From Klenkia soli (GTDB lineage Bacteria > Actinomycetota > Actinomycetes > Mycobacteriales > Geodermatophilaceae), in contig NZ_FNIR01000008.1 in assembly GCF_900103975.1 (NCBI RefSeq), positions 124,001-188,000 on the forward strand: DNA of 64,000 bases, in the 5' to 3' direction. The notes below the pieces were generated by a model, which worked only from the letters and a program-made list of their open reading frames with translations, did not search any database and was not told the origin of the DNA. The stretch's first letter is position 1; every line of letters starts with the position of its first letter. A program made the position numbers and the translations under genes. This document shows positions 10,679-64,000 of the stretch, in pieces.

Positions 10679-11124
10679 CGGGCGGCGACGGCCACGGTGA
10701 CCCGGCCGTGCACCGTCTTGGGCACCAGCAGCTCCCCGCCCTCGGCCAGCGCCGCGGCCTCGGCCACCGACGGCGTGCCCAGCGCGGCGGCCACCCGGGC
10801 CGAGACCGTGGGCACTGCCACCTGCGCCAGCCGGTCGACGGTCAGCCCGACGAGGCGCCACCCGCGCGCGTCGGCCGCGGCCTGCACCCCGGGTTCGGCG
10901 GCGCGACGGTCGACGGTGGCCAGGGCCGTGACGCGGACGCCCGGTGGCAGCACGGCGTCGACGGCGGCCAGCACCTCGGCGGCGGTCACCCCGGGCCGCG
11001 CCCCCACCCCGACCACGGCGTGGATCAGCTGGGCTGATCCGACGCCGTCCTGGCTCACCGACGCCGGTGAGCCAGGACGGACGTCGGTCAACCCAGCTGA
11101 TCCACGCCGGGCGGTGGCGGTCAC
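10675..11124 (-). CDS. cobE: Cobalamin biosynthesis protein CobE / CbiG C-terminal domain, with palindrome-encoded N-terminal extension
   Basis: The 149-residue product contains the small CobE fold from about residue 37 on (VVGVGARPGVTAAEVLAAVD), related to the C-terminal half of CbiG. CobE is needed in the aerobic pathway but its exact reaction is unsettled. The GTG at 11124 overlaps the cobB stop (GTGA), like every junction in this operon, which supports this start. However, residues about 8-35 are encoded by an 85-bp near-perfect palindrome (11020-11104) that has no place in the family. A second GTG at 11016 would begin exactly at the family core but has no ribosome site. The protein therefore either carries a 35-residue foreign head or starts internally. 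Confidence 0.75.
   Translation of the reverse strand: MTATARRGSAGLTDVRPGSPASVSQDGVGSAQLIHAVVGVGARPGVTAAEVLAAVDAVLPPGVRVTALATVDRRAAEPGVQAAADARGWRLVGLTVDRLAQVAVPTVSARVAAALGTPSVAEAAALAEGGELLVPKTVHGRVTVAVAAR
11020..11104. repeat. 85-bp palindromic element at the start of cobE
   Basis: Two 41-base arms (11020-11060 and 11064-11104) face each other around a 3-5 base loop. The outer 14 bases (gtggatcagctggg) and inner 14 bases (gtcctggctcaccg) pair perfectly; between them I count one substitution and two single-base offsets. On the minus strand it is read in frame as part of cobE. A stem this long is far beyond what base composition gives and would form a very stable RNA hairpin just after the cobE start codon. 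Confidence 0.85.
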
Positions 11125-15153: not shown

Positions 15154-15199
15154 GGGTGCGTTCCTCTCCCCGGGTGTCCGCGCCCGGAGGTGGCAGGTG

Positions 15200-15289
15200 G
15201 CGACGGCGGCAGTTCCTGGCTCACCCCCGGAGGGGCTGACAGTGGCGGGACCGCGCCGGAGTTCCACCGGCTTCCTGCACTGCCGTCGC
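15200..15289 (-). ncRNA. Cobalamin riboswitch ahead of the chelatase-cobO-cobB-cobE-cobC operon
   Basis: Read on the minus strand, the segment has the hallmark cobalamin riboswitch core: GCAGGAAGCCGGTG, then the ligand-binding GCGGTCCCGCCACTGT, then the B12-box-like GAGCCAGGAACTGCC. Flanks gcgacggcag and gccgtcgc can pair as P1. It ends 47 bases upstream of the GTG at 15153, where a GGGAGAGG ribosome site lies, so translational control is likely. High adenosylcobalamin should lower expression of the downstream operon. Confidence 0.93.
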
Positions 15290-15321
15290 AGTTCGCCGCC
15301 AATGAGACCACGCCCGATGAC

Positions 15322-15823: not shown

Positions 15824-16251
15824 CCCCCGACCGGGAACGGGCCGCGGCCGACCTCGCCGCCCTCGACGCCGACCGGGCCGCGCTGGCCGACCGGGTGGCG
15901 CCCGCGGCCTGGTTCGGCCCGGCCCTGGGGCTGCTGCTGTTCGTGTTCCTCTCCTCGAACGCGTTCGACTCCCCGTGGGTGACCGTCCCGGCGCTGCTCG
16001 GCTTCGGCATCGGGATCGGTCTGCTGGTCAACGCCTACCGCGTCCGCACGGGGGTGTGGGCCAGCACCCCGCCGAGGCAGCTGGCCGGCTGGGCGGTGTT
16101 CGTGGTCGCCGTCCTGACGCCCACCTACCTGCTCGCCGACGACCACCCGTGGGTGTTCGTGGTGGCCGGGGCGGTGCTGGGCACGGCGATCGCCGTCCTG
16201 TCGCACCGCTGGACCCGGGCCTGGCAGCGCGAGCTGCGGGAGGGGGTGTGA
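15820..16251 (+). CDS. Four-helix membrane protein, second of a tandem pair
   Basis: The 143-residue product starts at a GTG that overlaps the preceding stop (GTGA). It repeats the layout of its neighbour: head ADLAALDADRAALADRV, four membrane segments, SPWVTVPAL in the second, LLVNAYRVRTG after it, and a C-terminal SHRWTRAWQRELREG. It looks like an old tandem duplication, since similarity is concentrated in the head and a few membrane motifs. Coupled translation suggests the two proteins may form a hetero-oligomer. No catalytic residues stand out; transport, sensing or envelope roles are all possible. Confidence 0.72.
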   Translation: MTPDRERAAADLAALDADRAALADRVAPAAWFGPALGLLLFVFLSSNAFDSPWVTVPALLGFGIGIGLLVNAYRVRTGVWASTPPRQLAGWAVFVVAVLTPTYLLADDHPWVFVVAGAVLGTAIAVLSHRWTRAWQRELREGV

Positions 16252-16541
16252 CCGCCGTCGAACCCCGCTTCGACCAGGTGGTGCACGCCCCACCGCGGCT
16301 GCAGGTCTGCGGCCTGCTCGCCGCCGTGGACACGATGGAGTTCGCCGCCGTGCGCGACGCGGTGGGCGTCAGCGACTCGGTGCTGTCCAAGCACGTCAAG
16401 CAGCTCGAGGACGCCGGCTACGTCCGGGTCCGCAAGGCCACGGTCGCCTCCCGGCAGCGCACCTCGCTCTCGCTGAGCCCGGAGGGCCGCCGGGCGTTCA
16501 CCGCCCACGTCGCCGAGCTCCGCCGCATCACCGGCGGCTGA
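16248..16541 (+). CDS. Small winged-helix transcriptional regulator
   Basis: The 97-residue protein is a single winged-helix domain of the MarR/ArsR-related small type. The recognition helix reads VGVSDSVLSKHVKQLEDAGYV, followed by the wing VRKATVASRQRTSLSLS and a closing helix beginning PEGRRAF. Proteins of this size act as dimers. It starts at a GTG overlapping the stop of the second membrane protein (GTGA) and is the last gene of the operon. The palindrome GGAAAGTC/GACTTTCC at the operon promoter is a natural candidate for its binding site, giving autoregulation; that link is inference. A dispersed 68-bp palindromic element follows 17 bp after the stop. Confidence 0.85.
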   Translation: MTAVEPRFDQVVHAPPRLQVCGLLAAVDTMEFAAVRDAVGVSDSVLSKHVKQLEDAGYVRVRKATVASRQRTSLSLSPEGRRAFTAHVAELRRITGG

Positions 16542-16558
16542 GCGCACCGGCCGCAGGG

Positions 16559-16626
16559 GTCTTCGCGGATCCCTGCAGGTCGTCGCCCATCGCGATGGCT
16601 GCGCACCCGCAAGAATTCGCGGACAC
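16559..16626. repeat. 68-bp dispersed palindromic element, copy 1
   Basis: This imperfect palindrome is centred on the perfect 12-bp ccatcgcgatgg, with arms of 28 bases that agree at about 18 positions; most mismatches are transitions that would still form G-U pairs in RNA. It matches the element at 63061-63128 over the same 68 bases with no gap (about 54 identical positions by hand count), including GCGGATCCCTGC and GAATTCGC. It lies 17 bp after the winged-helix gene. Confidence 0.8.
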
Positions 16627-16680
16627 CCCGGGGGTGGCGACCCCGGCGTGACCTGGGTCCCGGGTGCAGAGTGGACGGCG

Positions 16681-17727
16681 ATGAACCGGCGGCTGCTCCT
16701 CGACTGGCTGGCCGTGCTGCTGGTCGCCGCCGCCCTGTCGGGCCTGCTGACGCTGCTCGCGGTCCCCTCGGCCACCCTGTTCGCCGGGCTGGCCACCGGC
16801 CTGGGCCGGGCGCTGCTGGTGCCCCGTAAGCTGACCCTCCCCAAGCACGGCATGACCGGCGCGCAGGCCGTCGTCGGCGTCTCGATCGGGGCGCTGGTCT
16901 CGCTGTCCACGCTGCAGGCGATCGCGCGGGACTGGCTGCCGGTGGTCGGCGTGACGGTCGGGACCCTGCTGCTCAGCCTCGTGGCCGGCCGGCTGATGGC
17001 GCTGCGCCCCGGGGTCAGCCGGGTGACCGGGGCGTTCTCGATGATCGCCGGCGGAGCCTCGGGCATCACCGTGATGGCCCGCGAGCTCGGCGCCGACGCA
17101 CGCATGGTCGCCGTCCTGCAGTACCTGCGCGTGCTGCTGATCGTGGTGACGATGCCGGTGGTCGCCGCCGTCGGCTACGGCGCCTCGGCCTCCGGCGGGG
17201 GGACGGCGGCCGACGCCGGACCCGGCCCGTGGGCCGGCCTGCTGTTCACCGCGGTGAGCATCGCCGTGGGCATCCCGCTGGGCCGGCTGACCCGGATCCC
17301 GGTGGCCGCCCTGCTGGGCCCGATGCTGGTCGCCGCGACGCTCGACCTCACCGGCCTGTCCCGGGACGCCGCCGTGCCGGCCCTGCTCGAGAGCGCGGCG
17401 TTCCTGGTCATCGGCCTCCAGGTGGGGCTCTCGTTCACCCGGGAGAGCCTGCGGGTGGTGGGGCGCGCGCTGCCGCTGGCGCTGGCGATCATCGTGGCGC
17501 TGGTGCTCGCCTGCGCCGGGCTGGGGGCGGTGCTGGCCGCGACCGCCGACGTCAGCCCGCTCACCGCCTACCTGGCCACCACCCCGGGCGGGCTCTACGC
17601 GGTGCTGGCCACCGCCACCGAGAGCGGCGCCGACGCGACCGTGGTGCTCGCCGTCCAGGTGCTGCGGCTGTTCGTCATGCTGCTCACCGCCCCGCTGGTC
17701 TCCCGCTGGCTCCGCCGCGGGGACTGA
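16681..17727 (+). CDS. AbrB-family (pfam05145) integral membrane protein
   Basis: Despite its database name this family is not the Bacillus AbrB DNA-binding protein; it is a polytopic membrane protein with a duplicated half, sometimes linked to ammonia monooxygenase by old annotation. The 348-residue product has about ten hydrophobic helices. It shows the family's repeated features: a GALVSLS helix after GMTGAQAVVG in the first half, VTGAFSMIAGGASGITVMARELGAD in the middle (quoted segments GGASGITVMARELGAD), and TTPGGLYAVLATATESGAD near the end. The ATG at 16681 is chosen over an upstream ATG at 16648 because it begins just before the first helix. The substrate is unknown. Confidence 0.85.
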   Translation: MNRRLLLDWLAVLLVAAALSGLLTLLAVPSATLFAGLATGLGRALLVPRKLTLPKHGMTGAQAVVGVSIGALVSLSTLQAIARDWLPVVGVTVGTLLLSLVAGRLMALRPGVSRVTGAFSMIAGGASGITVMARELGADARMVAVLQYLRVLLIVVTMPVVAAVGYGASASGGGTAADAGPGPWAGLLFTAVSIAVGIPLGRLTRIPVAALLGPMLVAATLDLTGLSRDAAVPALLESAAFLVIGLQVGLSFTRESLRVVGRALPLALAIIVALVLACAGLGAVLAATADVSPLTAYLATTPGGLYAVLATATESGADATVVLAVQVLRLFVMLLTAPLVSRWLRRGD

Positions 17728-17728
17728 C

Positions 17729-18292
17729 TCACCAGCCGAGCACGCGGCGGGCCTCGGCGGCGACCTGGTCGAACCGGCGGCGGTCCAGCACGGCGCCCTC
17801 GCGGCGGACATCGGCCGGGTCGACCCGCAGCACCCGGTCCACCCGCACCTCGCTGGGCCGGCCCTGCCGGTCCCACGCCCCGGTGCCGATGTCCACCCAG
17901 ACCCGGCCGTGCCGGGCCTCGTCCGCGGCGTCGCGGTCGTGGTCCTTGCTGGTCAGCATGAAACCGACCAGGTCGGTGCCGTCGCGCCCGGCGACGAGGA
18001 CCGGCCGGTCCTTGCCGCGGCCGTCGCCCTCCTCGAACGGCACCCATGCCCAGACGATCTCGCCGGGGTCGGGCCTGCCGTCGTCGCGGGGGGAGTAGGA
18101 GAGCTCGGCCCGACCGGTGAAGTCGCCGGCGCCGGGGTTCTGCCGCGGTGCACCGGCCGGCGGCAGCTGCGAGCGGTGCGCGGGAGGCGGGCCGGGGTCG
18201 GGGGCGCGGCGGGGCGTGGACGACGTGCGGGTGGCCTCCCGGACCACGGTCGACACGACCCGGGACAGAACCGACTTCCAACCGCTCGCCAT
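17729..18292 (-). CDS. PemK/MazF-like domain protein with long N-terminal extension
   Basis: The 187-residue protein has a low-complexity Pro/Arg-rich N-terminal part (residues 1-70) and a C-terminal PemK-like barrel. PGEIVWAWVPFEEG matches the first strand of the fold, KDRPVLVAGRDG the second, and FMLTSKDHDRD the loop with the acidic/basic residues of these RNases. Unlike typical MazF (about 110 residues), it has no adjacent antitoxin: the divergent 69-residue gene is 186 bp away and looks unrelated. It may be a solitary type II toxin homologue or a repurposed PemK domain. A TACGGT box (18301-18306, minus) nine bases before the ATG suggests leaderless transcription. Confidence 0.78.
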   Translation of the reverse strand: MASGWKSVLSRVVSTVVREATRTSSTPRRAPDPGPPPAHRSQLPPAGAPRQNPGAGDFTGRAELSYSPRDDGRPDPGEIVWAWVPFEEGDGRGKDRPVLVAGRDGTDLVGFMLTSKDHDRDAADEARHGRVWVDIGTGAWDRQGRPSEVRVDRVLRVDPADVRREGAVLDRRRFDQVAAEARRVLGW

Positions 18293-37887: not shown

Positions 37888-39456
37888 TCAGCCGGGGTAG
37901 GTGCGGCTGGTGTAGACCTGGCCGCTCCCCGTCACCCTCGTCTGGGTGCTGCCGATCATGACCAGGCAGCGCATGTCCACGGTGCCGGGGTCGAACTCGC
38001 CCAGGGTGGTCACGCGCAGCTCCTCCTCGGGGCCGCCGACGTCGCGGCCGACCACCACCACGGTGTCGGCCGACCGCACCTCCAGCAGCGCCTCGCGGGC
38101 GTCGAACAGCTGCTGCGGGCGCGCCTTGGAGCGCGGGTTGTAGAGCGCGATGACCAGGTCGGCGGCGGCCGCGTGGCGCAGGCGGTCCAGGACGACGTCC
38201 CACGGCTTGAGCACGTCCGACAGCGACAGGATGCAGAAGTCGTGGCCCAGCGGCGCACCCACCCGCGACGCCACCGCCTGGGCGGCGGTGATGCCGGGCA
38301 GCACCCGCACCGGGACGTCGGGGAAGTCCACCGCGGCCACCTCGAGCACCGCTGCGGCCATCGCGAACACCCCCGGGTCGCCGCTGGAGACCACCGCGAC
38401 CCGGCGCCCCGCGCGGGCCATCGCCAGGGCGGCCGCGGCGCGCTCGGCCTCGACCCGGTTGTCGCTGGGGTGCTTGACCTGCCGCGGGTTGGCCGCGACC
38501 CGGTCCAGGTAGGGGCCGTAGCCGACCAGGTCGTCGGCCTCGGCGAGGGCGGCCGCGGCCTCCGGCGTCGTCCAGTACCGCGCCCCGGGCCCGAGCCCGA
38601 CGACGGTCAGCGACCCTGCGCCCGCGACCGCCCCGACCGGCAAAGGATCCGTTGCACCCCCTGCCGGGCCCAGGACGGGGTGCAACGGATCCTTCGCCGG
38701 CTCATCGGTGCGCGCGGGGACGGCGGCGTTGCCCGGGCCGGTCAGCTCCGACGGCAGCAGCGCCAGCGAGAAGTAGGGCACCGTCTCGGGGTCGACGTCG
38801 GCCAGCGGCAGCACCCGCTGTCGGTCGGTGGTCGCCCGCTCGACGTACCAGGCGCGGTCCAGCACCCCGGCCACGGCGAAGGCGTCGCGGACGGCGGGGA
38901 AGGTGCGGCCCAGCTTCATCACCGCGGCGGAGTCGGCGGTCTCGAGCCAGGCGGCGAGCTCCTCGGTGGGCAGCGTGCCGGGCAGCACGGTGAGCACCTC
39001 GTCCCGCTCGACCAGCGGCCGGCCCAGCACCGCCGACGCGCCGGACACGCTGGTCACCCCGGGCACCACCTCGGTCGGGTACCGGTGCGCCAGCCGCTTG
39101 TGCATGTGCATGTACGAGCCGTAGAAGAACGGGTCGCCCTCGGCCAGGACGACGACGTCACGGCCGGCGTCGAGGTGGGCGGCCAGCCGGGCGGCGGCGG
39201 TCTCGTAGAACTCGTCGATGGCGCCCTGGTAGCCGCCGGGGTGGTCGGTGGTCTCGGTGGTGACCGGGTAGACCAGCAGCTCCTCGACCTGGCCGGCGCG
39301 CAGGTAGGGCTCGGCCAGCCCGCGGGCCACGGACCGACCGTGCCGCGCCGAGTGGAAGGCGACGACGTCGGCCGCGCCGATCAGCCGGGCGGCCTTGACC
39401 GTGACCAGCTCGGGGTCGCCCGGGCCCAGGCCGACCCCGTAGAGACGGCCGGTCAT
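37888..39456 (-). CDS. cobIJ: Fused precorrin-2 C20-methyltransferase / precorrin-3B C17-methyltransferase
   Basis: This 522-residue fusion carries two corrin methyltransferases. CobI (residues 1-235) has [30 protein letters not shown] and [13 protein letters not shown]. CobJ (about 280-522) has [41 protein letters not shown] and a final [10 protein letters not shown]-type region. CobI adds the C20 methyl and CobJ the C17 methyl with ring contraction. Such fusions are common in actinobacteria. The linker (about 245-275) is unusual: it is encoded by a 64-bp near-perfect palindrome (38637-38700) read in frame as [19 protein letters not shown]. The ATG overlaps the cobH stop by 4 bp. Confidence 0.95.
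38637..38700. repeat. 64-bp palindromic element in the cobI-cobJ linker
   Basis: Arms of 24 bases (38637-38660 and 38677-38700) match at 23 positions around a 16-base loop. Each contains GGATCCGTTGCACCCC. The element is translated in frame and encodes only linker sequence between the two enzyme domains. A match this long is not expected by chance even at this base composition. Confidence 0.88.
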
Positions 39457-58792: not shown

Positions 58793-58871
58793 CGCAGGAA
58801 ACCGGTGCGATCCCGGTGCGGTCCCGCCACTGTGAGCCCCTCGGGGTGAGCCAGACACTCCGGCTGCCGTG
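58793..58871 (+). ncRNA. Cobalamin riboswitch ahead of cobN
   Basis: The segment shows the riboswitch core GCAGGAAACCGGTGCGA, then GCGGTCCCGCCACTGTGAG, then GAGCCAGACACTCC as B12 box. CACGGCAG (58793-58800) pairs with CTGCCGTG (58864-58871) as the closing stem P1. The cobN ATG follows 41 bases later, with a GGGGGAAGG ribosome site between, so cobalamin probably blocks translation of cobN. Confidence 0.93.
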
Positions 58872-58911: not shown

Positions 58912-61900
58912 ATGCGCACCTTCACGCTGCTGTCCACCTCCGACACCGACCTCCTGGCGGCGCGCTCCAGCGACTCCGACTGGCGGCTGGGCAACCCCTA
59001 CCGGGTCGGCGACCTGGTCGAGTTCGCGCGGGGCACCGACCTCGTGGTCGTCCGGATCCTGGGGTCCCGCCGCAAGTACGAGGACATGGTGGCGCCGCTG
59101 CTGGGCCTCGGCGTCCCGGTCGTCGTGCTGGGCGGTGAGCAGCTGCCCGACGCCGAGCTCATGGAGCTCTCGACGGTGCCGATGGGCGTGGCCACCGAGT
59201 CGCACGCCTACCTGGCGCAGGGCGGGCCGGACAACATCGTCCAGCTGCACCGCTTCCTGGCCGACACCGTGCTGCTGGACGGCGAGGGCTTCGACCGCCC
59301 CGCCGTCGCCCCCGACTGGGGTCTCCTGGAACGACCCACGCAGGCCACCGGGCCGCGGGTCGCCGTCCTGTACTACCGGGCGCACCACCTGGCCGGCAAC
59401 ACCGCGTTCGTGCACGCGCTGAGCGAGGCGATCGAGGCCGCCGGCGGCGTGCCCGTGCCGGTCTACTGCGCGTCGCTGCGGTCGGTGGCCCCGGAGATGA
59501 TCGACGTGCTGCGCACCGTCGACGCGATGGTCGTGACGGTGCTGGCGGCCGGCGGTTCCCGCCCGGCCACCGCGCAGGCCGGTGGGGACGACGGCGCCTG
59601 GGACGTCGGGGAGCTGGCGGAGCTGGACATCCCCGTCCTGCAGGGCCTGGTGCTCGGCACCCCGCGGGAGACCTGGGCGGCCAACGACGACGGGCTCTCC
59701 CCGCTGGACGTCGGCAACCAGGTCGCCATCCCCGAGTTCGACGGTCGGATCATCACCGTGCCGTTCTCGTTCAAGGAGGTCGACGACGAGGGCCTGACCT
59801 CCTACGTCGCCGACCTCGAGCGCTGTGCCCGGGTCGCCGGCATCGCCGTGGCGCACGCCCGGCTGCGGCACACCGCCCCCGCCGACCGCAAGATCGTGGT
59901 CATGCTGTCGGCCTACCCGACCAAGCACTCCCGCATCGGCAACGCGGTCGGCCTGGACACCCCGGCGTCGGTCGTCCGGCTGCTGGCCGCGATGGCCGGG
60001 CAGGGCTACGACATCGGCGCCTTCGACGGGCCCGGTTCGCTGCCCGGCGTGGCCGACCTGGACGGCGACGCCCTGGTGCACGCCCTGATCGAGGCCGGCG
60101 GCCAGGACCCCGACTGGCTCACCCAGGAGCAGCTGAGCGGCAACCCGGTGCGCATCCCGGCCGCCGACTACCGCGCGTTCTTCGACACCCTGCCGGCCGA
60201 GCTGACCGACCGGATGGTCGAGCACTGGGGCCCGCCGCCCGGCGAGCTGTTCGTCGACCCGACCGACGACTGCATCGTGTTCGCGGCACTGCGGGCCGGC
60301 AACACCGTGGTGATGGTGCAGCCCCCGCGCGGGTTCGGCGAGAACCCGATCGCGATCTACCACGACCCCGACCTGCCGCCCTCGCACCACTACCTGGCCG
60401 CCTACCACTGGCTGCGCTCGGAGTTCGGCGCGCACGCGGTGGTGCACGTGGGCAAGCACGGCAACCTGGAGTGGATGCCCGGCAAGACCGTCGGTCTGTC
60501 GGCGTCCTGCGCGCCCGACGCCGCGCTGGGCGACCTGCCGATGGTCTACCCGTTCCTGGTCAACGACCCCGGCGAGGGCTCGCAGGCCAAGCGCCGCGCG
60601 CACGCCGTCCTGGTCGACCACATGGTGCCGCCGATGGCCCGCGCCGACACCTACGGCGACATCGCGCGACTGGAGCAGCTGCTCGACGAGCACGCCAACA
60701 TCGCCGCGATGGACCCGCCGAAGCTGCCCGCCGTCCGGCAGCAGATCTGGACGCTGATCCAGGCCGCCAAGCTCGACCACGACCTCGGCCTGGACGACCG
60801 CCCGCACGACGCCGAGTTCGACGAGATGATCCTCAACGTCGACGGCTGGCTCTGCGCGATCAAGGACAGCCAGATCCGCGACGGCCTGCACGTGTTCGGC
60901 TCCCCGCCCGAGGGGGACGCCCGGGTCGGCCTGGTGCTGGCGATCCTGCGCGCCCGGCAGATCTGGGGCGGCTCGGTCGCCATGCCCGGTCTGCGCGAGG
61001 CGCTGGGCCTGGTCGAGGACGGCTCCGCCGGCCTGCACGAGACCGACGACGTCGAGGCCCGTGCGCTGGCCCTGGTCACCGGCATGGAGGAGGCCGGCTG
61101 GGTGTCCTCCGCCGTCGCCCCACTGGTCCTGGACGTGCTCGGCGAGCCGCACCCCGACGTCGAGCGGGTGCTGCACTTCGCCGTCGACGAGGTGGTGCCG
61201 CGGCTGGCCCGGACCACCGACGAGATCGACATGGCGCTGCACGCCCTCGACGGCGGCTACGTGCCGGCCGGGCCGTCGGGCTCGCCGCTGCGCGGGCTGG
61301 TCAACGTGCTGCCGACCGGGCGCAACTTCTACTCCGTCGACCCCCGCGCGGTGCCCTCGCGGCTGGCCTGGGAGACCGGGCAGGGCCTGGCCGAGTCCCT
61401 CCTGGAGCGGTACCGGACGGAGACGGGGGAGTACCCGCCGTCCGTCGGGCTGTCGGTCTGGGGCACGTCGGCCATGCGCACCAGCGGGGACGACGTCGCC
61501 CAGGTGCTCGCCCTGCTCGGCGTCCGGCCGGTCTGGGACGAGGCCTCCCGCCGGGTGACGAAGCTCGAGCCCGTCCCGCTGGCCGAGCTGGAGCGCCCGC
61601 GGATCGACGTCGTCGTGCGCATCTCCGGGTTCTTCCGGGACGCGTTCCCGCACGTCGTGACCATGCTGGACGACGCGGTGACCCTGGCCGCGGGCCTGGA
61701 CGAGGACCCGTCGGACAACTACGTGCGGGCCCACGTCGAGGCCGACGTCGCCGAGCACGGGGACCGCCGCCGGGCCACCACCCGGGTGTTCGGCTCGAAG
61801 CCCGGCGCCTACGGGGCCGGGCTGCTGTCGCTGATCGACAGCCGCGACTGGCGCACCGACGCCGACCTGGCCGAGGTCTACGCGGTGTGGGGCGGCTACG

Positions 61901-62526
61901 CCTACGGCCGGGACCTGGACGGCGTCGCGGCCCGCCCGGACATGGAGTCCTCCTACCGGCGGATCGCGGTCGCGGCCAAGAACATCGACACCCGCGAGCA
62001 CGACATCGCCGACTCCGACGACTACTTCCAGTACCACGGCGGCATGGTCGCCACGGTCCGCACGCTGACGGGTTCGTCGCCGAAGGCCTACATCGGCGAC
62101 TCCACCCGGCCCGAGCACGTGCGCACCCGCTCGCTGGTCGAGGAGACCTCCCGGGTGTTCCGCGCCCGGGTGGTCAACCCGAAGTGGATCGCCGCGATGC
62201 GCAGGCACGGCTACAAGGGCGCCTTCGAGATGGCCGCGACCGTCGACTACCTGTTCGGCTACGACGCCACCACCGGCGTGGTCGCCGACTGGATGTACGA
62301 GAAGCTGACCCAGAGCTACGTGCTGGACCCCGAGAACCGCGCGTTCCTGGAGGAGTCCAACCCGTGGGCGCTGCACGGCATCGCCGAGCGGCTGCTCGAG
62401 GCCGCCGACCGCAAGCTGTGGGCCGAGCCAGACCCCCAGCTGCTCGCCGAGCTGAAGCAGGCCTACCTGGAGACCGAGGGCGACCTCGAGGCCGGCCCCC
62501 GCACCCCCGCCGAGAGGACCCCGTGA
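58912..62526 (+). CDS. cobN: Cobaltochelatase subunit CobN
   Basis: CobN is the large subunit that inserts cobalt into hydrogenobyrinic acid a,c-diamide with help from an AAA+ motor. The 1204-residue length is normal. Family segments include VVVRILGSRRKYEDMV at the start, RKIVVMLSAYPTKHSRIGNA, the substrate site VGKHGNLEWMPGKTVGLS, and NYVRAHVEADVAEHG to KNIDTREHDIADSDDY in the C-terminal part. The ATG at 58912 has GGGGGAAGG seven bases upstream. Its transcript starts with a cobalamin riboswitch. The motor subunit is most likely the ChlID fusion at 13.1-15.2 kb, 44 kb away but under the same class of riboswitch. It overlaps the next gene by 4 bp. Confidence 0.96.
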   Translation: MRTFTLLSTSDTDLLAARSSDSDWRLGNPYRVGDLVEFARGTDLVVVRILGSRRKYEDMVAPLLGLGVPVVVLGGEQLPDAELMELSTVPMGVATESHAYLAQGGPDNIVQLHRFLADTVLLDGEGFDRPAVAPDWGLLERPTQATGPRVAVLYYRAHHLAGNTAFVHALSEAIEAAGGVPVPVYCASLRSVAPEMIDVLRTVDAMVVTVLAAGGSRPATAQAGGDDGAWDVGELAELDIPVLQGLVLGTPRETWAANDDGLSPLDVGNQVAIPEFDGRIITVPFSFKEVDDEGLTSYVADLERCARVAGIAVAHARLRHTAPADRKIVVMLSAYPTKHSRIGNAVGLDTPASVVRLLAAMAGQGYDIGAFDGPGSLPGVADLDGDALVHALIEAGGQDPDWLTQEQLSGNPVRIPAADYRAFFDTLPAELTDRMVEHWGPPPGELFVDPTDDCIVFAALRAGNTVVMVQPPRGFGENPIAIYHDPDLPPSHHYLAAYHWLRSEFGAHAVVHVGKHGNLEWMPGKTVGLSASCAPDAALGDLPMVYPFLVNDPGEGSQAKRRAHAVLVDHMVPPMARADTYGDIARLEQLLDEHANIAAMDPPKLPAVRQQIWTLIQAAKLDHDLGLDDRPHDAEFDEMILNVDGWLCAIKDSQIRDGLHVFGSPPEGDARVGLVLAILRARQIWGGSVAMPGLREALGLVEDGSAGLHETDDVEARALALVTGMEEAGWVSSAVAPLVLDVLGEPHPDVERVLHFAVDEVVPRLARTTDEIDMALHALDGGYVPAGPSGSPLRGLVNVLPTGRNFYSVDPRAVPSRLAWETGQGLAESLLERYRTETGEYPPSVGLSVWGTSAMRTSGDDVAQVLALLGVRPVWDEASRRVTKLEPVPLAELERPRIDVVVRISGFFRDAFPHVVTMLDDAVTLAAGLDEDPSDNYVRAHVEADVAEHGDRRRATTRVFGSKPGAYGAGLLSLIDSRDWRTDADLAEVYAVWGGYAYGRDLDGVAARPDMESSYRRIAVAAKNIDTREHDIADSDDYFQYHGGMVATVRTLTGSSPKAYIGDSTRPEHVRTRSLVEETSRVFRARVVNPKWIAAMRRHGYKGAFEMAATVDYLFGYDATTGVVADWMYEKLTQSYVLDPENRAFLEESNPWALHGIAERLLEAADRKLWAEPDPQLLAELKQAYLETEGDLEAGPRTPAERTP

Positions 62527-63050
62527 TCCGCCGCTCCACCCTGCTCGTCCTGCCCGTCGCGCTGCTGCTGAGCGCCTGCGGTTCCGGTGAGGGCGGGGAC
62601 GCCGCGGCGCAGCCGACCGCGACCTGCCAGAGCGCCGACCCCACCGCGCAGCCGCCGTCCTCGGTGTCCACCGACCTCGCCACCGAGCCCGAGGTGCCGG
62701 CCACCGACGCGTTGCCGCCGTGCGGGCTGGTGGTGGCCGACGTGGTCGTCGGCGACGGCGCCGTCGCGGAGGCGGGCTCGGCGGTCGAGGTCAAGTACGT
62801 GGGCGCGTTCTACGAGAGCGGCGAGGTGTTCGACGCGTCGTGGAACCGGGGCGCTGACGAGACCCTGCCTTTCACCGCCGGTGCCGGCCAGGTGATCGAG
62901 GGCTTCGACCAGGGTGTGCAGGGGATGGCCGTCGGCGGACGCCGGTACATCACCATCCCCAGCGACCTCGGCTACGGCGCGAACGGCCAGGGCCCCATCC
63001 CGGGCGGCGCCACCCTGGTCTTCGTCGTGGACCTGGTCTCCGTCAGCTGA
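62523..63050 (+). CDS. Lipoprotein FKBP-type peptidyl-prolyl isomerase
   Basis: The 175-residue protein has a lipoprotein signal with lipobox LLSAC (cysteine near residue 19), a Thr/Pro/Ala-rich spacer and one FKBP domain from about residue 70. The active-site segments VEVKYVGAFYESGEVFDASW, PFTAGAGQVIEGFDQGVQGM, RRYITIPSDLGYGANG and LVFVVDLVSV are all present, with Tyr, Phe, Asp, Val-Ile and Trp-position residues conserved except the pocket Trp. It would assist folding of exported proteins at the outer face of the membrane. The GTG overlaps the cobN stop (GTGA), so it is co-translated with cobN although no functional link is known. Confidence 0.9.
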   Translation: MIRRSTLLVLPVALLLSACGSGEGGDAAAQPTATCQSADPTAQPPSSVSTDLATEPEVPATDALPPCGLVVADVVVGDGAVAEAGSAVEVKYVGAFYESGEVFDASWNRGADETLPFTAGAGQVIEGFDQGVQGMAVGGRRYITIPSDLGYGANGQGPIPGGATLVFVVDLVSVS

Positions 63051-63060
63051 GGCCGGCGGG

Positions 63061-63128
63061 GTGTCCGCGGATCCCTGCGGGTGTCCGGCCATCACGATGA
63101 CCGGACACCCGCAGGAATTCGCTGACAC
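63061..63128. repeat. 68-bp dispersed palindromic element, copy 2
   Basis: Two 28-base arms (63061-63088 and 63101-63128) agree at 25 positions around a 12-base centre; outer ends GTGTC/GACAC, then GCGGATCCCTGCGGGTGTCC. It fills the gap between the convergent stops of the FKBP gene and the frameshifted gene at the right edge, so it may also act as a two-way terminator. The element at 16559-16626 is the second copy. Confidence 0.88.
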
Positions 63129-63137
63129 CCGGCTCGC

Positions 63138-64000
63138 TCAGGCCAGTTCGACCGCTACCCGGCCGTGTCCACGGCCCTCGCGTCGGTCGCGCCACCCCGC
63201 CAGGACCGCCTCGACGGCTTCGGCGTGCCCGGAGATGCCCAGCGTCCGGTCCCCGCCGTCAGAGCTGCCGAACGGGTGGTCGTGCGCACCTGGGCTCCCC
63301 GACGAGCACGCTGCGCACAGCATGCGCACGCTGGTGGTCCAGTTCTCGCCGGTCAGTCCGGCTCGGTCGAGATCCGACAGCAGCTCGTCCAGGTCGTCGT
63401 CGTGCGAGACGGTGAGGACCACGCTGCAGGTGGGCACCGAGGACCTCTCCCACAACTGGATCTCGTCGAAGACCGGCACATCGTGGCCGTCGAGCACCCG
63501 TGTGCCGTGGGGATCGCCGTCGTGGAGGACGACGTCGCCGAACCGGTGTCCGGATGTCGGCAGGGGGACGTTGCGGATCTGGATGCGCGCCGGATCGACC
63601 CGGATGCCCCAGACGACCTCCGTCCCACACCTGCCCGTCGAGGGTCAGCTCCGGCTCACCGATGAACCGTGGCTCCGGGTTGAGCCGCACCGGGCAGGGA
63701 CCGAGGTCGGCATCGACCGGGTCGTCGTCGGAGCCGTCGAGCTCGATGCCGAAGGCCCGCCAGGCCTTGCGGGCCGTCGGCCAGTCGCGCAACGCCGTCG
63801 CGGCGATGCCGAGGTTCCACGCCATCGGCTCGCCTTCGTGCTGGTCGGCGGGGATCCGCTCGAGACCGCGCACGCCGAGCTCGCGGGACGCCGTCCAGTC
63901 ACGGCGCCACTTCGCGTACATGGCCCGGTCGAACCAGAAGGCCGCGTCACCGGGCGTCCGGCGCAGCACCTCCACCGCCATCGCGTCCAGCCGGTCGGCG
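63138..64000 (-). pseudogene. TPR-like protein gene with an apparent one-base frameshift (5' end outside the window)
   Basis: Two minus-strand frames together read as one protein. The first, entering from the right edge, gives WFDRAMYAKWRRDWTASREL, PMAWNLGIAATALRDWPTAR and EPELTLDGQVWD, with TPR-like helices. It then runs into an arginine/proline-rich nonsense tail. The other frame continues sensibly from 63618-63624 as EVVWGIRVDPARIQIRNVPL, HRFGDVVLHDGDPHGTRVLD and SVVLTVSHDDDLDELLSDLD, to the stop at 63138. One extra G in GACGGAG (minus strand) explains it. Either the gene is broken or the base is a sequencing error. The family is unknown beyond the TPR-like start. Confidence 0.7.

Follow-up and report, generated by a model that had tools for sequence, protein, structure and literature searches.

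The window analysed here is a 64,000-nt stretch of a Klenkia soli contig, taken from the genome that we call G000. Near its right end, at 63061–63128, lies a 68-bp palindrome whose sequence is as an earlier note on this DNA had described, with an outer limit of 72 bp (63059–63130) and the ends GGGTG...CACCC. It folds as a single hairpin of 29 pairs at −52 kcal/mol, compared with −22.7 kcal/mol in shuffles (z = −9.9). The related copy that the note placed at 16559–16626 does align without gaps and is 79.4% identical (54/68); it folds poorly (z = −1.7). The features needed to follow the analysis are:

63059–63130, no strand: S-type (GTGTCC) four-unit palindrome, full 72 bp, defined by sequence, fold and copy search
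63061–63073, + strand: unit 1, outer left (GTGTCCGCGGATC), from the sequence and the 20-bp period across 108 arms
63081–63093, + strand: unit 2, inner left (GTGTCCGGCCATC), same basis
63096–63108, − strand: unit 2′, inner right, inverted, same basis
63116–63128, − strand: unit 1′, outer right, inverted, same basis
62523–63050, + strand: FKBP-type peptidyl-prolyl isomerase (PF00254, E 1.4e-25), its stop 8 bp before the 63059–63130 element
63138–63497, − strand: convergent ORF with no Pfam match and a weak coding score, its stop 7 bp past the 63059–63130 element
16557–16628, no strand: decayed further copy of the S type within the window, from alignment to 63061–63128
16248–16541, + strand: HTH_34 winged-helix regulator, its stop 15 bp before the 16557–16628 copy
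16648–17727, + strand: AbrB family protein (PF05145), its start 19 bp past the 16557–16628 copy
11016–11109, no strand: 94-bp palindrome of the T type, which represents a second, similar family; in G003, G006 and G007 its type is found flanking AbiEi/nuclease-like genes

An Rfam scan of the window gave no match at the palindromes, and its sole matches were two cobalamin riboswitches, at 15191–15315 (−) and 58797–58858 (+), the latter just before cobN (58912–62526). The window also holds a gene with a PemK/MazF-like toxin domain at 17729–18256 (−; PF02452, E 2.9e-11) and, at 38637–38700, a palindrome with 32-bp arms that are 88% complementary. This last one lies inside a predicted two-part tetrapyrrole methylase ORF (37888–39456, −) and is possibly an in-frame palindromic insertion.

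A third close copy of the 63061–63128 palindrome is found in the window genome at C6:162977, more distant copies are also present genome-wide, and the sister species G006 has four, so the family extends beyond the two copies of the window and beyond one species. The flanks of the copies are non-homologous, and we therefore regard them as a dispersed repeat. A covariance model built from six copies brought in more distant relatives, of exactly the same length, in other Klenkia genomes.

Each element consists of four units of ~13 bp with a 20-bp period, arranged head-to-tail within an arm and inverted about the centre. The pattern can be written as GTG(N7)RTC, a 7-bp spacer, a second such unit, and then the mirror image. 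Across the arms of the S, G and A types (n=108), self-identity reaches 0.65 at a shift of 20 compared with a typical value of ~0.27, and this sharp peak means that each arm is two copies of a unit. Sorting by type gives nine S (GTGTCC), 35 G (GTGGCC) and 11 A (GTGGGAGG) copies, with element ends of either GGGTG...CACCC or GGCGTGGATCAG.... The copies differ from each other by 15–40%, i.e., there are no recent identical ones. Some elements of two types stand in tandem, 1–13 bp apart (L086:2426-2570, L095:2499-2651, L099:2499-2645 and L100:2499-2655), usually an A (or V) beside a G (or S).

Counted in six of the nine Klenkia genomes, the S/G/A copies number ~55. The architecture pattern occurs 3–14 times per genome in six of the nine Klenkia genomes, and the same pattern read backwards, used as a control, has no match in any of the nine. 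Among 115 Geodermatophilaceae genomes, the exact pattern matches in Klenkia only. Two pattern scans of genome contigs gave no matches in the first case and only Klenkia records in the second, including K. marina, K. brasiliensis and Klenkia sp. PcliD-1-E. The number of copies, their presence in several species and their intergenic sites beside stop codons all support the earlier view of a small interspersed, REP-like repeat. The flanking target duplications that had been considered alongside it were not detected, with no direct-repeat signal at either T-type or S/G/A elements. Lone half-elements were also sought as possible ends of a long transposon; nearly all half matches pair into whole elements, and a long transposon bounded by these ends was rejected on that ground.

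Gene context was called with a simple codon-usage gene finder. Convergent gaps make up 28/50 of the element-bearing gaps but only 22/175 of the others (odds ratio 8.9, p = 1.3e-9). Elements lie a median of 10 bp from the closest stop codon, and several of them contain that codon. For example, at L078, L087, L089, L090, L093, L097, L105 and L120, the neighbouring gene's predicted stop is 20 or 13 bp inside, so the element would encode the last residues of that protein. In co-directional contexts there is a weak trend in orientation: ~9/12 G-type copies are oriented the same way relative to the upstream gene.

The earlier note had proposed that RNA pairing may be what is kept. To assess this, the match between the two arms of one element was compared with the match between arms drawn from different elements. 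The values were 0.695 within and 0.721 between elements for the G type, and 0.765 and 0.786 for the A type. Since arms of the same element match no better than arms of different elements, pairing is not kept in these two types, and RNA structure was rejected as their conserved feature. The small S type alone has an excess within elements (0.759 vs 0.707, p = 0.003). Compensatory changes among the first six copies were barely above shuffles, and folding is weak for the G consensus and poor for some copies.

Many element positions are common to several species, sometimes with a different type. The 3′ end of the FKBP gene, for example, carries S in G000, G in G003 and a tandem A+G in G001, with no element in G002, G004, G005, G006, G007 or G008. 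Six species likewise have an element at the site orthologous to 11016. It is of type T in G000, G003 and G006, of a different type in G001 and G002, and chimeric in G007, where the two arms are of two types.

One further locus links the palindromes to a gene. In four species (G000, G001, G002 and G007), two elements ~1.2 kb apart enclose a single gene, which in G000 is the solitary gene C15:63604-64668 and encodes an AbiEi/nuclease-like protein of ~355 aa. The earlier statement that no transposase is near stands for the scanned genes adjoining the window copies, and a cognate gene of the elements lies elsewhere in the genome, at this locus. Between species, the two elements around the orthologous gene switch type jointly: both are S/GGTGACC-like in G000, G001 and G002 have A, G007 has G, and G005 and G006 have a further type, V. 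Only in these last two genomes, where V elements flank the gene, are there strong V-type matches. Judged by eye, the neighbours at the locus in the four species resemble a CoA-binding protein and an enzyme of Cys/Met metabolism, and no AbiEii toxin gene was seen adjoining the copy examined there.

Klenkia genomes carry several paralogues of the gene each (one in the incomplete G008). The majority are closely bracketed by palindromes, whose sequence type differs from one paralogue to the next. A later survey of more distant Klenkia paralogues included several that lack a clear flanking palindrome. We scored this arrangement as the best 68-mer match between the 400 bp upstream and the 400 bp downstream of a gene, with a threshold of at least 44/68, in 90 homologues from Geodermatophilaceae and other actinobacterial families. 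Matching palindromes were found at 79% of these homologues, compared with 1.9% of mismatched pairs and 0/60 control genes of the window genome. Outside Geodermatophilaceae, ~12/21 homologues reach 44/68, one of which (L207) is of low complexity. The four-unit arrangement recurs as well: a four-unit score of at least 46 is reached by 56% of upstream and 44% of downstream flanks vs 5% of distal windows, and flank arms of many families have the 20-bp period (identity 0.44 vs ~0.29). The upstream side often has an additional feature, the eight-base motif GTCCACAG, which is within 160 bp upstream of 40/91 genes compared with 3/965 control windows, often ~57 bp before the start codon (L142-L233). 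Leaving aside the upstream flank of the gene, it is near 0/50 S/G/A elements. We take this motif to be similar to the core of the actinobacterial DnaA box.

The T-type family shows how solitary copies (solos) relate to the flanks of the gene. With matches halved, as a palindrome is hit on both strands, there are ~28 T-type copies in G003, ~25 in G006, ~22 in G007 and ~8 in G000; no T-type gene was found in G000 despite its ~8 solos. Over nine genomes, solo-to-flank identity is 0.815 within the own genome vs 0.701 overall, a coupling with a permutation p of 0.0001 that carries no correction for species relatedness. The G005 flank was expected from the G005 solos before the locus was retrieved, and the gene was found with that flank. 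In the T superfamily, solos mostly have the end GATCAG on both arms, whereas in flank copies it is confined to the arm that points away from the gene, so a solo resembles two outer ends joined. Coupling is looser in the S/G/A family, as many G-type copies are in genomes that now have another resident flank type.

The N-terminal ~200 residues of the protein match AbiEi profiles. In a set of 37 homologues, the PADLOC AbiEi profile matches 37/37 and Pfam AbiEi_4 matches 30/37 at E ≤ 0.01; the profile matches are to AbiEi only and not to Y1 (HUH) transposases. The C-terminal region has conserved motifs (E214, D246, ExDG at 257–260, K263 and E276-K277), in which D246, D259 and G260 are invariant across the 37 homologues and E214, K263, E276 and K277 are at least 90% conserved. 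These residues resemble a PD-(D/E)XK nuclease centre. The C-terminal domain has no match in Pfam, NCBIfam or PDB, and profile comparison gave no match to E. coli Vsr either, so it is from the motifs that we read a putative nuclease activity. Relatives of the protein were sought on plasmids, phages and viral contigs, and none was found there. The known DNA targets of AbiEi-family proteins are inverted repeats of ~23 bp in the promoters of their own genes, and the promoter of M. tuberculosis Rv2827c has four of them (PMC7319586). The palindromes are therefore natural candidate binding sites.

Our preferred reading, to which we give a probability of about 55%, is that the palindromes are REPIN-like, non-autonomous elements that are read, and probably spread or converted, by the AbiEi/nuclease-like protein instead of a RAYT. 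It builds on what the genomes directly establish, namely the architecture, the two-sided flanking, the paralogue-specific types, the dispersal and the type switching at orthologous sites; from these we infer DNA binding, cutting and element movement by the protein. By analogy with the way AbiEi proteins read inverted repeats (PMC7319586), the N-terminal domain would read the units. The C-terminal domain may then nick or cut at or near the element, and repair or strand transfer would copy elements to new sites and convert existing ones to the resident type. Elements would persist where they do least harm, i.e., between convergent genes and just past stop codons.

Several other explanations account for part of this evidence. 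One that we consider possible, with odds well below those of the preferred reading, is that the protein only binds: a solitary AbiEi-like factor with a degenerate nuclease-like domain would use the palindromes as operators, autoregulate through the flanking pair and act through the dispersed network on transcription ends or chromosome structure, its sites drifting in step with its specificity and without active spreading. This agrees with the binding of own-promoter inverted repeats by AbiEi-family proteins (four for Rv2827c; PMC7319586), with spacers that are not kept complementary within an element, as expected of double-stranded protein sites, and with orthologous positions that several species often have in common. 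Against it, the solos lie past stop codons and not in promoters, a matched copy is also found downstream of the gene, presence and absence vary between close species, and T-type copies reach ~20–28 in some genomes. A little less probable again is a gene-conversion drive without transposition, in which the nuclease cuts, repair copies other elements into the break, types sweep through fixed positions, and ectopic repair only rarely creates a new one. In its favour are the switches of type at orthologous sites, the chimeric element in G007, positions common to several species and the missing target duplications; the clean presence/absence at the FKBP 3′ end counts against it, and the three unrelated types there suggest repeated arrival as well as conversion.

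The bidirectional terminators of the earlier note, or mRNA 3′-end hairpins that are alike through common function, seem improbable to us. Placement between convergent genes and directly past stop codons fits them, as do the very stable fold of well-preserved copies such as 63061–63128 and the common orientation of ~9/12 co-directional G-type copies. However, the G and A types are not under selection for complementary arms, some copies fold poorly, and termination leaves unexplained the 20-bp period, the type switching, the gene-specific types with their tie to one gene family, and the matched copies upstream of the gene. We consider it very unlikely that the palindromes are MITEs of an unrelated DDE transposon that surround the gene by chance. 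Their inverted-repeat ends and dispersal are MITE-like, but they lack target duplications, half-elements nearly all pair into wholes, no long transposon with these ends appeared, and in several actinobacterial families they are again tied to the same gene family.

Returning to the preferred reading, in which the protein reads and spreads its palindromes, the matching repeats on both sides of a nuclease-like gene suggest a previously undescribed gene-and-repeat system in actinobacteria. To our knowledge, no AbiEi/nuclease-like gene has been described as paired with dispersed palindromes, and a search of open-access full text gave no paper on DUF559 with an inverted repeat and nothing relevant otherwise. 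The system works in the manner of REPIN-RAYT (PMC3116915), but we do not count it as a member, the flanked gene not being a Y1 transposase. A bolder version, which we hold tentatively and at somewhat less than even odds, is that this is a selfish or domesticated non-RAYT system of actinobacteria: AbiEi-like nucleases would recognise four-site palindromes, maintain copies to either side of their own gene, spread others to the 3′ ends of genes and, when their DNA specificity changes, rewrite those that are dispersed, amounting to a sequence-specific conversion drive in bacterial chromosomes. If true, the REPIN-RAYT arrangement of a chromosomal protein with a dispersed palindrome population would have a second, independent solution, built on an AbiEi/nuclease-like protein of several actinobacterial families that has so far been recognisable only by its AbiEi-type domain. 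The protein family would gain candidate DNA targets that can be read from each genome and tested singly, and the species-by-species type switching would allow co-change of a DNA-binding protein and its scattered sites to be studied.

Among known systems, the REP/REPIN elements and RAYTs (TnpA-REP) of Pseudomonas and relatives (PMC3116915, PMC8266576) are similar in having many dispersed extragenic palindromes, inverted pairs able to form hairpins, and several types in a genome, with each type linked to a chromosomal gene that has copies of it on its flanks. In Klenkia, however, that gene is AbiEi/nuclease-like and not a Y1 HUH transposase, the units are ~13 bp with four per element on a 20-bp period, and the type can change at orthologous positions. 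The AbiEi antitoxins of type IV toxin–antitoxin systems (S. agalactiae AbiEi and Rv2827c; PMC7319586) are similar in their AbiEi-like N-terminal region and in the inverted repeats beside the gene, four of them in the Rv2827c promoter. The Klenkia protein differs in its extra C-terminal nuclease-like domain, its repeats lie to either side of the gene as well as scattered through the genome, and no AbiEii toxin gene was seen beside the copy examined. MITEs and solo terminal repeats are likewise short and non-autonomous and resemble two outer ends joined, but the Klenkia elements have no target duplication, and no DDE transposase was found. Homing endonucleases and Vsr-like PD-(D/E)XK proteins are comparable in that a nuclease-like gene is accompanied by its own putative sites. 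Homing genes, however, interrupt their site, whereas in Klenkia whole sites flank the gene.
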